From an uncultured Victivallaceae bacterium (GTDB lineage: Bacteria > Verrucomicrobiota > Lentisphaeria > Victivallales > Victivallaceae): a stretch of DNA of 64,000 nt. Below the pieces are notes generated by a model that was given only the letters and a program-made list of their open reading frames with translations, had not been told where the DNA came from and searched no databases. Positions 44,624 through 50,825 of this stretch are shown one piece after another; position 1 is the first letter of the stretch; each line of letters opens with the position of its first letter. The translations under genes and the position numbers were made by a program. The stretch lies in the NCBI GenBank assembly GCA_944389925.1, contig CALXOD010000007.1:1-64000 (forward strand), read 5' to 3'.

Positions 44624-44670
44624 AGGTGGCAACATTCATTTCCACCATTCAATATCATCAGAGAAAAAAC

Positions 44671-47298
44671 ATGAATACCGATCTGCCGCTTGTTCTGCCT
44701 GCCGCCGGAGCGGATTTTTCCGCCGACCGGGTCACCGTCATTGAACGTTCCCGATTCGCCGGCGGCAGTGGCGTCATGCTGGCCCCCAACGCCGAACCGC
44801 TGCCGGACGGACCGTTCGGTGACGCCGATTTGACGTTTCACTTCGACATTTCCCGCCCGGGACGCTATCTGCTGGTCAGCTATGCCGATACCTGCGGAAA
44901 AGCCCGAAAAAAAATGAATGAATCCCACAGCAAATACGATTCTTTACGGATCATGCTTTCCGTGGATGACGACTTTGCCCGCAGTCGGGTCATCGTTTCC
45001 CCCTGGCAGGATCAGGCTCTGGCCATGCAGGAGCTGCAACGCTGTGAATTTTCCGCCGGGCGCCATACGGTCCGTATCCGCCTGCCCCGGGAAGTCGGCT
45101 TGAATCGATTGGAAATCCATCCCTATCTTCCTCCGGAGGTTCCGGAAAAGGCACGCAACTACCATGCACCGATCACACCCGGTCCCCATCCCCGGATCTG
45201 GATAACCCCGGAAACTCTTCCGGCCATTCGGGCCAATCTGGAAAAACCGGAAAACCGCCCGGTGTGGGATGCCGTCCGCCGCTCGGCCGCAGAAACCATG
45301 TCGTTTGCGCCACCGCCCCACACTGTGGTCGGGCATCTGCCGGAACTGCTGGAACTCGCAGTGCATCAAGCTTTCACCGCATTGATGACCGATGATCGCG
45401 AAACCGGCTTGAAAGCCGTGCGGCTGATGAACGATTATCTTGCCGCCGTGGAATTCGACAATCTGCTGGACATCACCCGGGAACTGGGCGAAGTCATCTA
45501 TTCGGGAGCACGTGTATACGACTGGTGCTACGCCTGGATGACGGAAACGGAACGTAAATGTTTTCGCGACCACCTGCTGCGCCTGGCAGACGGCATGGAA
45601 ATCGCCTGGCCCCCCTTCGGTCAACCGGTGGTCAACGGTCACGGCAACGAAGCACAGGTCAACCGGGACCTGCTGGCCATGGCCATCGCACTTTTTGGAG
45701 AAGACGACGAACCGTACCGGTATTGCTCCTGGCTGATGCTGGAAGATCTGGCGCCGCTGCGTGCTCTGGAATACCGGTGTGACCGCCATAATCAGGGCGT
45801 TGGATATGGTGCCTATCGCTTCGCCTTCGAAATGCACGGAGTCTGGATGCTGCGTCGGATGTGCGGGCGCGAAGTGTTTGCCCCGGAAATCAAAAACGTA
45901 TACAATTTCTGGCGTTATTACCTGCGTCCGGACGGGCGGATGCTGCAGGACGGCGACGGCATCTCCGGAGAAGGCGCATGGAGTGCGCCGCTGCTGAGCT
46001 TCATGTGCTACACCTACTCCGGCAATCCACGCATCAAAGGAGATTTTCTGAAACACGGCGGTGCGATTCCCGACCGAACCCTGTTTCTGGCGTTGAACGA
46101 TCCCGACCTGATGCCGGTCTCCACGCCGGAAGGCCTGCCGGAAACGCATTATTTTGAGGGTGTGATCGGCTCCATGATCGCCCGAACCGGCTGGGACTCC
46201 GATGCCGTACAGGTGGAAATGAAGGGAGGCGGCGTGCATTTCGGCAATCATCAGCACGGCGATGCCGGGAATTTCCAGATTTTTTACCGGGGCATGCTGG
46301 CGGCGGATCTCGGAATGTACGTTTTCTACGGAACACCTTATGATTTCGGATACAACAAACGCTCCATCTGTCACAACGTCATGCTGGCCTACGATCCGGA
46401 AGAGATTGTTCCCCGCCAGGCCGTGAACGACGGCGGGCAGCGCTTCAATCAGGAACTGCCGCTCACGCCGGAAATGGCCCTGCATGAACCATGGTTTCAA
46501 AACGGGGCCACTCTGGCGGCGGACTTCGGACCCGACCCGGTGCGTCCTCTGTTCACTTATCTGAAAACGGATCTGCGCGCTGCCTATTCCGAAAAACTGC
46601 GGGCATACTGCCGCAGCTTCCTCTTTGTCCGGCTCGACACCCCCGGCACACCGGGATTGCTGCTGGTGGCCGACCGCATGACCACCGCCCGGCCGGAATT
46701 CAAAAAATACTGGCTGCTCAACACATTCCGCCGGCCGGAGTTCATCGACAACGGCTTGCAGGTCCGTTCCGACCGCGACCGGGATCCCGGCAAGCTGACG
46801 CTCTCCATGCTGCTGCCGCGTGACTGCGAATGGCATCTGGCCGAAGGGGAAGCCCTGCACCAGGTATTCGGTGTACAGCTGGAATCCCCGAAACCGGAAT
46901 CACCCGAATCCAACGGGTTCCGTACCATGATTTCTCCCCGCACTCCGGCGGCCACCGACTGCTTCGTCGCCTGCATGCAGATCGGTGCCGAATCAGCGAC
47001 GCCGCTGCCAATAGATTGGGAGGCTCTGCAGGAATGTTGCCGGATCACGCTTCCCGGACGCGTACTGTTTCTCGGTACCGGCGAAACGCCGATTCACGAA
47101 TCGCTGACTTTTCAGGTGCCGGACGGCTCACCGGCCCAGCTGGTTGCCGCAGGCCTGGAACCGGGGGTATGGTATCTGGAGAATGCCGACGGCCGGCAGC
47201 GCAGCCACACCGTTCTCCCGGGACGGGAAACGATCACCGACACCCTGCCCCCGGGCCAGTATCGGCTGGTGCCGGACCGCCGTGCCAGCGGAGACTGA
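44671..47298 (+). CDS. Heparinase II/III-like protein
   Basis: An 875-residue protein of the heparinase II/III (alginate-lyase type) superfamily: an N-terminal beta domain (about 1-165), an (alpha/alpha) toroid with MFGRARVYDWCYAWM-like elements (GARVYDWCYAWMTETE), then the C-terminal beta-sandwich with GVHFGNHQHGDAGNFQIFYR, where His and Asp residues match the family's metal site. These enzymes cleave uronate-containing polysaccharides by elimination. No signal peptide is visible, so it may act on imported oligosaccharides. The ATG at 44671 has only a weak ribosome site (AGAGA). murD starts 4 bases after its stop. Confidence 0.85.
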   Translation: MNTDLPLVLPAAGADFSADRVTVIERSRFAGGSGVMLAPNAEPLPDGPFGDADLTFHFDISRPGRYLLVSYADTCGKARKKMNESHSKYDSLRIMLSVDDDFARSRVIVSPWQDQALAMQELQRCEFSAGRHTVRIRLPREVGLNRLEIHPYLPPEVPEKARNYHAPITPGPHPRIWITPETLPAIRANLEKPENRPVWDAVRRSAAETMSFAPPPHTVVGHLPELLELAVHQAFTALMTDDRETGLKAVRLMNDYLAAVEFDNLLDITRELGEVIYSGARVYDWCYAWMTETERKCFRDHLLRLADGMEIAWPPFGQPVVNGHGNEAQVNRDLLAMAIALFGEDDEPYRYCSWLMLEDLAPLRALEYRCDRHNQGVGYGAYRFAFEMHGVWMLRRMCGREVFAPEIKNVYNFWRYYLRPDGRMLQDGDGISGEGAWSAPLLSFMCYTYSGNPRIKGDFLKHGGAIPDRTLFLALNDPDLMPVSTPEGLPETHYFEGVIGSMIARTGWDSDAVQVEMKGGGVHFGNHQHGDAGNFQIFYRGMLAADLGMYVFYGTPYDFGYNKRSICHNVMLAYDPEEIVPRQAVNDGGQRFNQELPLTPEMALHEPWFQNGATLAADFGPDPVRPLFTYLKTDLRAAYSEKLRAYCRSFLFVRLDTPGTPGLLLVADRMTTARPEFKKYWLLNTFRRPEFIDNGLQVRSDRDRDPGKLTLSMLLPRDCEWHLAEGEALHQVFGVQLESPKPESPESNGFRTMISPRTPAATDCFVACMQIGAESATPLPIDWEALQECCRITLPGRVLFLGTGETPIHESLTFQVPDGSPAQLVAAGLEPGVWYLENADGRQRSHTVLPGRETITDTLPPGQYRLVPDRRASGD

Positions 47299-47302
47299 CG
47301 CC

Positions 47303-48562
47303 ATGCCCGCTTCTCCCCGCCTGATCATCATCGGACGCGGCACCAGTGGCCGCGCCGCCGAACGACTGGGCCGCCTGGCCGGTTATGAAGTCACCGTCGT
47401 GGAAGACGGAGACGGCGAGGCCGCCGCTCGACAGGTGGCCGCCGCCGATCTCGTCGTCACCAGCCCCGGCGTCAAGCCGTGGTCCCCCCTGTACCGGGCG
47501 GCCTTGGACGGCAGAGCCGAATTCATTGGCGAAATGGAGTTTGGATTCCGCCATTTTCCGGGAAAAGTCGTCGCAATTACCGGCACAGACGGCAAAACCA
47601 CCACCACTGAACTAACCTGTCATCTTCTGCGCGTTCTCGGTCTGCATCCGGCAGAAGCGGGCAACATCGGAGTTCCGCTCTCCGCCATTGCCGCGGACCT
47701 CCGGGAAGGCCTGCTTCCCCCCGATACTGTGGCCGTCGTCGAAACCAGCTCCTTTCAACTGGAACGAATCGATCGTTTCGCCCCGGAAGCGGCAGTACTG
47801 CTCAACATCGGCTCCGACCATCTGGACCGCTACCACGGCAGTCCGGCGGAATATGAAGCGGTGAAACGCCGGATCTTCCGGCATGTCACTCCGGGAAACC
47901 GGATTTTCGGAATCAGCATGAACGAACCGGACGCCCGGCGTCGCGTTGTCACGGACGGCGACCGTATTTTACTGGACGGACAGGAAATTCTGCGATTTTC
48001 CGAGACCCGTTTGAGCGGCGCGCACAATCTGGAAAACCTCATTGCCGCCATTGAGCTCTGCGCCCGACTGCTGCCCGCTGAAGCATTTGCCACCGCCGCA
48101 TTCCGGGACGGCGCGACCACATTCAGCACCGGCCGTCACCGGATTGAAACCGTTGCCGAACACAACGGAGTTCGTTACATCAACGACTCCAAGGCGACCA
48201 ATCCCCATGCCGCGGCCGCCGCGCTGCGTACCCTGGATGCGCCGCCGCACTCCGTGCACTGGCTGCTCGGCGGTCTGGACAAGGGGATGGATTTCCGGGA
48301 ACTGCGGACCTTCGCGGAACAAATCCGCCGTGCCTATCTGTTTGGTGAATGTCGGGAGAAAATCCGAAACGCCCTTTCTGACGTCATTGAATGTGTCGAT
48401 TTCGGAAGGGATTTCGAAGGTGCGGTTCAGGCTGCCGCGCAGGCCGCCCGGCCGGGCGAAACCGTGCTGCTGGCTCCTGCCTGCGCCAGCATGGATATGT
48501 TCCGGAATTACCAGGAACGCGGCGACCGTTTCCGAGCCGCGGTGCTGGTAAAAATATCCTGA
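47303..48562 (+). CDS. murD: UDP-N-acetylmuramoylalanine--D-glutamate ligase
   Basis: A 419-residue MurD, which adds D-glutamate to UDP-MurNAc-L-alanine in peptidoglycan synthesis. The N-terminal UDP-binding domain has LIIIGRGTSGRAAERLG. The ATP loop is VVAITGTDGKTTTTEL, followed by VETSSFQLERI and the NIGSDHLDRYHG block. The C-terminal domain has INDSKATNPHAAAAAL and LLGGLDKGMDF, the classical Mur-ligase signatures. The ATG at 47303 lies 4 bases after the heparinase-like gene; there are no other mur or fts genes nearby, unlike the usual dcw cluster. Confidence 0.95.
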   Translation: MPASPRLIIIGRGTSGRAAERLGRLAGYEVTVVEDGDGEAAARQVAAADLVVTSPGVKPWSPLYRAALDGRAEFIGEMEFGFRHFPGKVVAITGTDGKTTTTELTCHLLRVLGLHPAEAGNIGVPLSAIAADLREGLLPPDTVAVVETSSFQLERIDRFAPEAAVLLNIGSDHLDRYHGSPAEYEAVKRRIFRHVTPGNRIFGISMNEPDARRRVVTDGDRILLDGQEILRFSETRLSGAHNLENLIAAIELCARLLPAEAFATAAFRDGATTFSTGRHRIETVAEHNGVRYINDSKATNPHAAAAALRTLDAPPHSVHWLLGGLDKGMDFRELRTFAEQIRRAYLFGECREKIRNALSDVIECVDFGRDFEGAVQAAAQAARPGETVLLAPACASMDMFRNYQERGDRFRAAVLVKIS

Positions 48563-48603
48563 AAAAAAAGCAAAACAGGCTTTCATTCCCGCAAAATCCA
48601 TGC

Positions 48604-48609
48604 TATACT
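48604..48609 (+). promoter_or_regulatory. Extended -10 promoter for the rarA leader RNA
   Basis: TATACT is preceded by TG one base upstream (TGCTATACT), an extended -10 element. No good -35 is seen. Transcription would start near 48616, about 207 bases before the rarA ATG. Confidence 0.5.
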
Positions 48610-48615
48610 TATATA

Positions 48616-48822
48616 ACGGCAGTTTGCTGTTTTTCATATATGGTAAAGCATTTTCTTGAAAAGGGACGACCGGAATGGGTTCCGGTTGGATAACCTGCGG
48701 AAAGAGAAGGAGTTCCGGCGTCCATGGCGACTTCGCATAAAATCGCACTGAGTCATTCGCTTGTACCGAGTGCAAAGACTGACGGAATCGTATCCTTTCC
48801 GGTGGTTTCCGACTGAAACGGA
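48616..48822 (+). ncRNA. Structured RNA or long leader upstream of rarA, possibly 6S-like
   Basis: This stretch has no convincing gene but much pairing potential. ACCGGAATGG (48669-48678) pairs with CCTTTCCGGT (about 48794-48803, one U-U mismatch), flanked outside by GGGAC/GTTTC and inside by TTCCG/CGGAA, a long rod enclosing about 115 bases. Alternative pairings exist: ACCGGAA/TTCCGGT locally, and GGACG-CCGGAA with TTCCGG-CGTCC (48664-48723). Size and rod shape, plus the neighbours rarA and 5-formyl-THF cyclo-ligase (next to 6S RNA in some bacteria), suggest a 6S-like RNA; a cis-acting leader is the alternative. A 30-codon frame at 48724-48816 also lies here. Confidence 0.3.
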
Positions 48823-50226
48823 ATGACCGATCACCGGCCGTCCGTTGAAGATACGGACGGGAGCATGAGCGACGATCTTTTCGAATCGAACGAGGCGCCG
48901 GCATCCGGCGCCGGAGGACTGGCGGCGGCGGCCAAAGCCATGCCGCTTGCTGCACGTCTGCGTCCGCGTTCGATCGAAGAATACGCGGGACAGAAACATC
49001 TGCTTTCTCCCGGCATGTTGCTCCGCCGCGCTATTGACGCCGACCGGTTCACCTCCATTATCCTCTCCGGCCCCCCCGGCACCGGAAAAACCAGTTTATC
49101 AGAACTGATTGCCCGCAGTACCAACTCCGCTTTTGTCCGTCTTTCCGGCGTCACCTCGTCCGTTGCGGACATTCGCCGGGAAATTGCCGTGGCCTTGAAG
49201 CGCCGCCAGGTAAATGGACGTCGAACCGTTCTGTTCATCGACGAGATTCACCGCTTCAACCGGGCCCAGCAGGACGCCTTGCTGCCTGATGTCGAAAACG
49301 GCAATATCCGACTGATCGGCGCGACGACCCACAATCCGCAATTTTACGTGGTCGGGGCGCTGCTATCCCGTTCCTTGGCATTTCAGCTTCAACCGCTGAG
49401 CAGAGAAGATATTCTGGCCATTCTGGAGCGGGCGCGGACCGATGAACGGGGCTTCCCGGATCGAACGATTGAATTGACGCCCGAGGCTGCCGAATTTCTG
49501 GCACAGGCCTGCGAAGGCGACGCGCGCCGAGCGCTTAACGCCTTCGAAATCGCCGTGCTTACCACGCCCGAAAACGAGGCCGGCGTCATCGTTGTCGATA
49601 CGAAAGAAGCGGAAAGCTCCATTCAGAAAAAGATGGTTCATTACGATGATGATAACCATTATGACACCGCCAGCGCCTTCATCAAAAGCATGCGGGGCAG
49701 CGATCCCGATGCCGCCATCTATTACCTGGCAAAAATGCTCCATGCCGGAGAAGATATCCGGTTCATTGCCCGTCGGATTATGATTTTCGCCTCCGAGGAC
49801 GTCGGCAACGCGGATCCCCGGGCTCTGGAACTGGCCGCGGCGGCGGCACAGGCCGTGGAAATGGTCGGCATGCCGGAAGCACGGATCATTCTGGCCCAGG
49901 CGGTTACCTACTGCGCAACCGCCCCCAAGAGCAACGCCTCCTATACCGCTATCGAAGAAGCGGCGGCGGATATTGCACACGATCGGATTCAACCGATCCC
50001 GCTGCCGTTGCGCGACCCCAACTCTGCCGGGGGGAAAGCCGCCGGACATGGTCGCGATTACCGTTATCCGCATGATTTCGGTGGTTTCGTGGTACAGGAT
50101 TACCTGACTGTTCCGAAAACCTATTACCGTCCCGGTAAAATCGGCTACGAAAGCAAAATCAGTGAACGACTTGATTACTGGAAACAATGCCGAAAAGTCG
50201 CGGCGGCCACGGAGGCACAGCCATGA
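48823..50226 (+). CDS. rarA: Replication-associated recombination protein A (RarA/MgsA)
   Basis: A 467-residue AAA+ ATPase that acts at stalled replication forks. PLAARLRPRSIEEYAGQKHLL is the usual entry block. Walker A is LSGPPGTGKTSL, Walker B is VLFIDEIHRFNRAQQDALLP, sensor 1 is LIGATTHNP, and the C-terminal tetramerisation region has RIMIFASEDVGNADPRAL and AQAVTYCATAPKSNASY. The ATG at 48823 has a poor ribosome site and an in-frame ATG at 48865 is an alternative start; the conserved part begins after both. The stop overlaps the next start (ATGA). Confidence 0.95.
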   Translation: MTDHRPSVEDTDGSMSDDLFESNEAPASGAGGLAAAAKAMPLAARLRPRSIEEYAGQKHLLSPGMLLRRAIDADRFTSIILSGPPGTGKTSLSELIARSTNSAFVRLSGVTSSVADIRREIAVALKRRQVNGRRTVLFIDEIHRFNRAQQDALLPDVENGNIRLIGATTHNPQFYVVGALLSRSLAFQLQPLSREDILAILERARTDERGFPDRTIELTPEAAEFLAQACEGDARRALNAFEIAVLTTPENEAGVIVVDTKEAESSIQKKMVHYDDDNHYDTASAFIKSMRGSDPDAAIYYLAKMLHAGEDIRFIARRIMIFASEDVGNADPRALELAAAAAQAVEMVGMPEARIILAQAVTYCATAPKSNASYTAIEEAAADIAHDRIQPIPLPLRDPNSAGGKAAGHGRDYRYPHDFGGFVVQDYLTVPKTYYRPGKIGYESKISERLDYWKQCRKVAAATEAQP

Positions 50227-50825
50227 GCCGGGACAAGCAAACGCTTCGCAAACATTATCTGGCGCAACGCCGCGGTCTGTCCGATGCCGAACGAAACCAG
50301 GCGGATGCGACCATCCGGGAACGGATCCGGGAACTTCTGGAATACCGGCAAGCCAGACTGGTGGCGATTTATGCCGGAGACGGCACGGAGCCGGACCTGC
50401 TGCCGCTGACTGCGGCGGATCCGGACAAACGTTTTTTTCTGCCGCGTTATGTGAAAAGCACTGGTCAATACGAACTGGCGGAGGTGCATAACCCGGCAAC
50501 GGAATTGCATATTGCCCGTTACGGGCTGGCGGAGCCGATCCCGGAATGTCCGGCGGCGACCCCGGCGGAAATGCATGATGAATTTCTGTTTCTCATTCCC
50601 GGAGTAGCGTTTGATGAGCGTGGCGTACGTCTCGGACGCGGCGGCGGTTATTATGACCGGCTGCTGGCGGAAACCAGCGGCGTGATCGCGGGGGTGTTTT
50701 ATGCCGGTCAGCAGGCGGATGCCCTGCCGGAAGAGCAATACGACCGCCGGATGGATCTGGCGGTAACGGAAGAAAAGGTGTGGATTTTTCATAATGATGC
50801 GGCCCGACACACCGCGGCATTGTGA
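50223..50825 (+). CDS. 5-formyltetrahydrofolate cyclo-ligase
   Basis: A 200-residue enzyme of the MTHFS/YgfA family, which uses ATP to turn 5-formyl-THF back into 5,10-methenyl-THF. DKQTLRKHYLAQRRGLS is the N-terminal substrate block. LIPGVAFDERGVRLGRGGGYYDRLL is the diagnostic signature with the ATP loop. The ATG at 50223 overlaps the rarA stop (ATGA) and has GGAGG upstream, so it is translationally coupled to rarA. Confidence 0.95.
   Translation: MSRDKQTLRKHYLAQRRGLSDAERNQADATIRERIRELLEYRQARLVAIYAGDGTEPDLLPLTAADPDKRFFLPRYVKSTGQYELAEVHNPATELHIARYGLAEPIPECPAATPAEMHDEFLFLIPGVAFDERGVRLGRGGGYYDRLLAETSGVIAGVFYAGQQADALPEEQYDRRMDLAVTEEKVWIFHNDAARHTAAL

Follow-up and report, generated by a model that had tools for sequence, protein, structure and literature searches.

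The DNA between murD and the replication-repair gene rarA in an uncultured gut bacterium of the Victivallaceae probably encodes a structured, untranslated leader that acts in cis on the rarA mRNA and is absent from Rfam, a reading in which we place moderate confidence. The leader lies on the + strand of the window, the whole stretch of 64,000 nucleotides that was analyzed. Several observations support this assignment, among them a promoter upstream with no terminator before the gene and selective constraint on a sequence that does not code for protein.

Locus and extent of the leader

The start of rarA defines the end of the leader. Comparison with homologs and congeners places the start at ATG 48865 (MSDDLF) and not at ATG 48823, so the leader spans about 48616–48864 (Table 1). 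A preliminary description of this locus had taken ATG 48823 as the start and closed its interval at 48822, which is too early. The rarA product matches the NCBIfam AAA ATPase and RarA models, but under their curated cut-offs. Downstream, the start of a 5-formyltetrahydrofolate cyclo-ligase gene overlaps the rarA stop codon (ATGA). Because of this overlap, and because no + strand terminator was found between the 5′ module described below and rarA in this genome, the cyclo-ligase gene probably shares one message with rarA. Adjacency of murD and rarA is confined to this genus among the loci compared (tblastn; three congeners).

Elsewhere in the window, a 638-codon open frame on the - strand (44944–46860) runs antisense to an 890-codon frame (44626–47298). 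It probably arose as a side effect of coding sequence rich in G+C.

Table 1. Features of the murD–rarA region, in window coordinates.
Feature	Position	Strand	Description and basis
murD	47300–48562	+	Upstream neighbor; NCBIfam TIGR01087 above cut-off; start inferred
Predicted promoter	48581–48609	+	-35-like TTTCAT 48581–48586 (weak); extended -10 TGCTATACT 48601–48609
Probable rarA mRNA leader (5′ UTR), ~249 nt	48616–48864	+	Divergence against four-fold sites; non-coding
5′ hairpin	48615–48631	+	At the inferred +1 (~48616); stem AACGGCA/UGCUGUU; terminator-like by scan
U/A tract UUUUUCAUAUA	48630–48640	+	Directly after the 5′ hairpin; pattern search
Local 12-bp helix, one bulged A	48664–48676 / 48712–48723	+	100% of pairs kept in three congeners
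Two small hairpins	48727–48736 and 48745–48773	+	Kept in three congeners
Start-proximal hairpin CCGUCCGU-UGAAGAU-ACGGACGG	48838–48860	+	Abuts the rarA start
rarA	48865–50226	+	Corrected start; NCBIfam AAA ATPase / RarA models and homolog alignments
5-Formyltetrahydrofolate cyclo-ligase gene	50223–50825	+	TIGR02727 above cut-off

Constraint without coding

The leader evolves more slowly than synonymous positions in its neighbors. Pairwise divergence among three genomes of the genus is 11.9%, 15.0% and 11.1% in the leader. The same genome pairs differ by 34.9%, 37.5% and 20.1% at four-fold sites of rarA, and by 29.6%, 32.1% and 24.5% at those of murD. The leader thus changes at about 0.3–0.6 of the four-fold-site rate, and since its divergence falls below that of four-fold sites in both genes, its sequence is constrained beyond chance. 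The leaders at two of the loci compared (L033 and L034) are the same.

Protein coding does not account for this constraint. A small protein gene at 48640–48816 would draw on a 58-codon frame that is open and free of indels in two congeners, but here the frame is interrupted by an in-frame TAA at 48691, and substitutions fall on codon positions 1 and 2 while avoiding position 3 (for example, 6/10/2 at positions 1/2/3). We therefore rejected this candidate, whose probability we put close to nil, in agreement with the preliminary description, which had seen no clear protein. A long frame on the reverse strand of this genome was also set aside, being broken in congeners.

Between genera, the leader is variable in length and in its interior. 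Lengths range from 181 to 322 nt, hairpins at both ends recur in relatives, and the middle part is unalignable between genera. Such lengths and middles fit a UTR better than an RNA of fixed size. A single common fold for the entire leader was sought across genera and none was found, and no known Rfam family reached its gathering score in the rarA-bearing loci of relatives.

A possible shared core, hairpin-UUNNSAUAR-hairpin, appears in the middle of six leaders (L030, L174, L014, L013, L172 and L157), with the window's counterpart at 48732–48740. This core, which was defined post hoc, occurs in 15 of 64 leaders against 7.7 expected, about a two-fold excess that comes chiefly from close genera; we treat it as a lead only.

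Promoter and 5′ module

An extended -10 promoter precedes the leader and recurs upstream of rarA in relatives. The extended -10 element TGCTATACT, already reported in the preliminary description, is real and unchanged in both congeners, and 17 bases before it there is a weak -35-like TTTCAT. A strict sigma-70 scan listed no site at this element because the -35 match is poor. Poor -35 matches are common among extended -10 promoters. The string TGCTATA is present 190–331 bases upstream of rarA in 15 genomes from 5 genera.

The promoter forms part of a compact 5′ module. A hairpin near the inferred +1 is followed directly by UUUNAUAUA or a close variant, with stem sequences that are unrelated between genera. 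Five genera carry this combination of promoter, hairpin and UUUNAUAUA upstream of rarA, and similar modules are found in the order's other families. A search for GCTATA-N18-45-TTTNATATA gives one copy in the window and 0 in 100 shuffles, and searches of 12 and 7 whole genomes found copies with a hairpin at rarA only. Across the order, the hairpin adjacent to the U tract is stronger than other positions in the same rarA leaders (Fisher chi2 94.9, 46 df); for all of these module tests, the anchors and the promoter string were picked after inspection of the data, and related genomes are not independent of one another.

Two loci (L177 and L179) carry two tandem UUNAUAUA tracts about 65 and 95 bases upstream of rarA, each preceded by a small hairpin. 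These tracts lie far nearer to rarA than the tract in the window's family.

A terminator-like hairpin at +1 also bears on a different reading, in which termination or processing ends the transcript before rarA and the stretch is either a small RNA in its own right, with no relation to 6S, or a transcription attenuator. Strong terminators do stand about 55–118 nt upstream of rarA in three relatives (L157, L015 and L028), and a separate RNA or attenuation is thus possible in those few. Against this reading, the + strand from the 5′ module to rarA carries no terminator in the window or in most relatives, and we regard the reading as unlikely here. Transcription that continues into rarA, as expected of an mRNA leader, is the reading we prefer.

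Local structure and the start-proximal hairpin

A stable hairpin lies next to the rarA start codon. Its pair probability is 0.96–0.98, and in congeners the loop varies while the stem is invariant. Folding near the start is stronger at 64 rarA loci of the class (mean z -1.29) than at 31 control genes, all taken from this window alone (mean z -0.36). As an alternative to its main reading, the preliminary description had proposed a leader with a final hairpin over the rarA start region. Our data support that idea once the start is placed at 48865 and the hairpin is taken to be 48838–48860.

Other local helices are kept within the genus. The 12-bp helix has three one-sided changes in congeners and a low pair probability in the single-sequence ensemble (0.04). 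The two small hairpins that follow it show one compensatory change, from U-A to C-G. Taken together with the start-proximal hairpin, the local helices lose none of their pairs in congeners and show that one compensatory change, a result that shuffles of these three close sequences match equally well.

The leader may pair in more than one way. Several competing CCGG/TTCCGG pairings are found within it, as the preliminary description had noted for TTCCGG and CCGGAA. Rod-closed and local folds lie just 1.5–3.3 kcal/mol from the minimum, so alternative pairings are possible. A short stretch, GGTTGGATAACC, had also been likened to the 3′ end of 16S rRNA. It reads GGTTGGACAACC and GGTCGGGCAACC in congeners, and since it is not kept, the likeness looks like chance.

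Relation to 6S RNA

The leader occupies the slot in which 6S RNA sits in other lineages of the phylum. In a phylum-wide sample of 289 genomes, the Rfam 6S model RF00013 scores over its cut-off in 100. Of the 30 best phylum matches, 18 are immediately followed by rarA in the same orientation, which identifies this position as a 6S slot. RF00013 also matches just before rarA in additional loci, among them ones from Verrucomicrobia and Omnitrophota. In Lactobacillales, 6S RNA is likewise flanked by rarA (PMC8414754). Besides this slot and strand, the leader shares with the rarA-linked 6S RNAs of Verrucomicrobia and Omnitrophota a similar overall length and a promoter of its own. The preliminary description had read the stretch as a 6S-like RNA, and as to location it was right, with 6S preceding rarA in many sister lineages; the identity was not supported.

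Searches with 6S models found no such RNA here. The RF00013 scan that the preliminary description had suggested matched nothing in the region at a threshold as loose as E 10 and nothing in the whole genome of the window, and not one of the 198 class genomes has a match above cut-off; control genomes gave matches. A custom covariance model, R1, built from 24 phylum 6S RNAs that are mostly rarA-linked, returned no convincing match in either this genome or related ones, its best matches being at chance level and outside the leader. Run on rarA loci with filters off, R1 again gave no match in the leader. The 6S blocks CCCTGC, GGGAGC...CACCC and GGCGGGG were not found in a 6S arrangement in the leader. 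A 6S-Flavo search gave no matches, its control included, and so carries no information. The best of the weak 6S matches among class genomes, in G345 (E 0.011), lacks a neighboring rarA and was discarded. Sequence and structure tests thus do not assign the leader to 6S RNA; its neighborhood alone fits.

The predicted rod points the same way. The preliminary description had called a long interrupted rod, and such a rod is predicted, but over 206 nt it folds only 1.2 sd below shuffles (z -1.21), and in congeners the outer helix is interrupted, with only 81% of its pairs kept. In the minimum-energy prediction the rod has small internal loops only, with no large central bubble.

These results bear on the possibility that the stretch encodes a 6S RNA, or an Ms1-like RNA that binds RNA polymerase, which stayed in the 6S position while its sequence diverged beyond recognition. 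Its mature form would be an RNA of about 181 nt, the rod at 48663–48843, released from a precursor that carries a 47-nt 5′ tail. The rarA linkage of 6S RNA elsewhere in the phylum and the lack of any other recognizable 6S RNA in the class both favor this idea, and in one locus (L038) the TGCTATACT string lies about 30 nt upstream of a 6S match. Ms1 of Actinobacteria provides a precedent, a weakly conserved 6S-like RNA that binds RNA polymerase and was uncovered through synteny (PMC9130861). Ms1 has a different gene neighborhood from the rarA leader. Since sequence models can miss RNAs of this type, as Ms1 shows, we assign the diverged-RNA reading some probability, yet the silence of RF00013 and R1, the missing arrangement of conserved blocks, the properties of the rod and the variation of leader length and middle between genera make it unlikely.

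The class as a whole presents a 6S gap by Rfam, with 0 of 198 class genomes against 100 of 289 across the phylum, and this gap is worth explaining. That Lentisphaeria kept 6S, as a new and unrecognized 6S/Ms1-type RNA-polymerase-binding RNA that sits in the ancestral rarA slot and is joined to the rarA transcript, is in our estimate a rather unlikely outcome.

A model for the rarA leader

A cis-acting mRNA leader, the reading we favor, suggests how the element may work. Transcription would begin at about 48616 from the extended -10 promoter. The RNA would then present, in order, the terminator-like hairpin, the U/A tract, several local hairpins and a stable hairpin before the rarA start codon, and polymerase would read through from the leader into rarA. 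The 5′ hairpin may protect the end of the transcript or work as an attenuator close to the promoter, and ribosome loading may be limited or gated by the start-proximal hairpin. Judged from this arrangement, the leader most likely sets rarA output post-transcriptionally.

The leader resembles the structured 5′ leaders of other bacterial mRNAs in having its own promoter, a 5′ hairpin, a start-proximal hairpin and constraint without coding. Unlike described structured leaders, it belongs to no described Rfam family. Compared with 6S RNA, it lacks a match to sequence or covariance models, the conserved bubble blocks and the large bubble, and its length and middle vary between genera.

In Lentisphaeria, a little-studied class of gut bacteria, these findings point to an RNA element at rarA that had not been described. 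Something that 6S models miss occupies, in this class, the place where the global regulator 6S RNA is usually found. Whether 6S in Lentisphaeria was lost, changed past recognition or turned into a cis-acting leader is thereby made a testable question.
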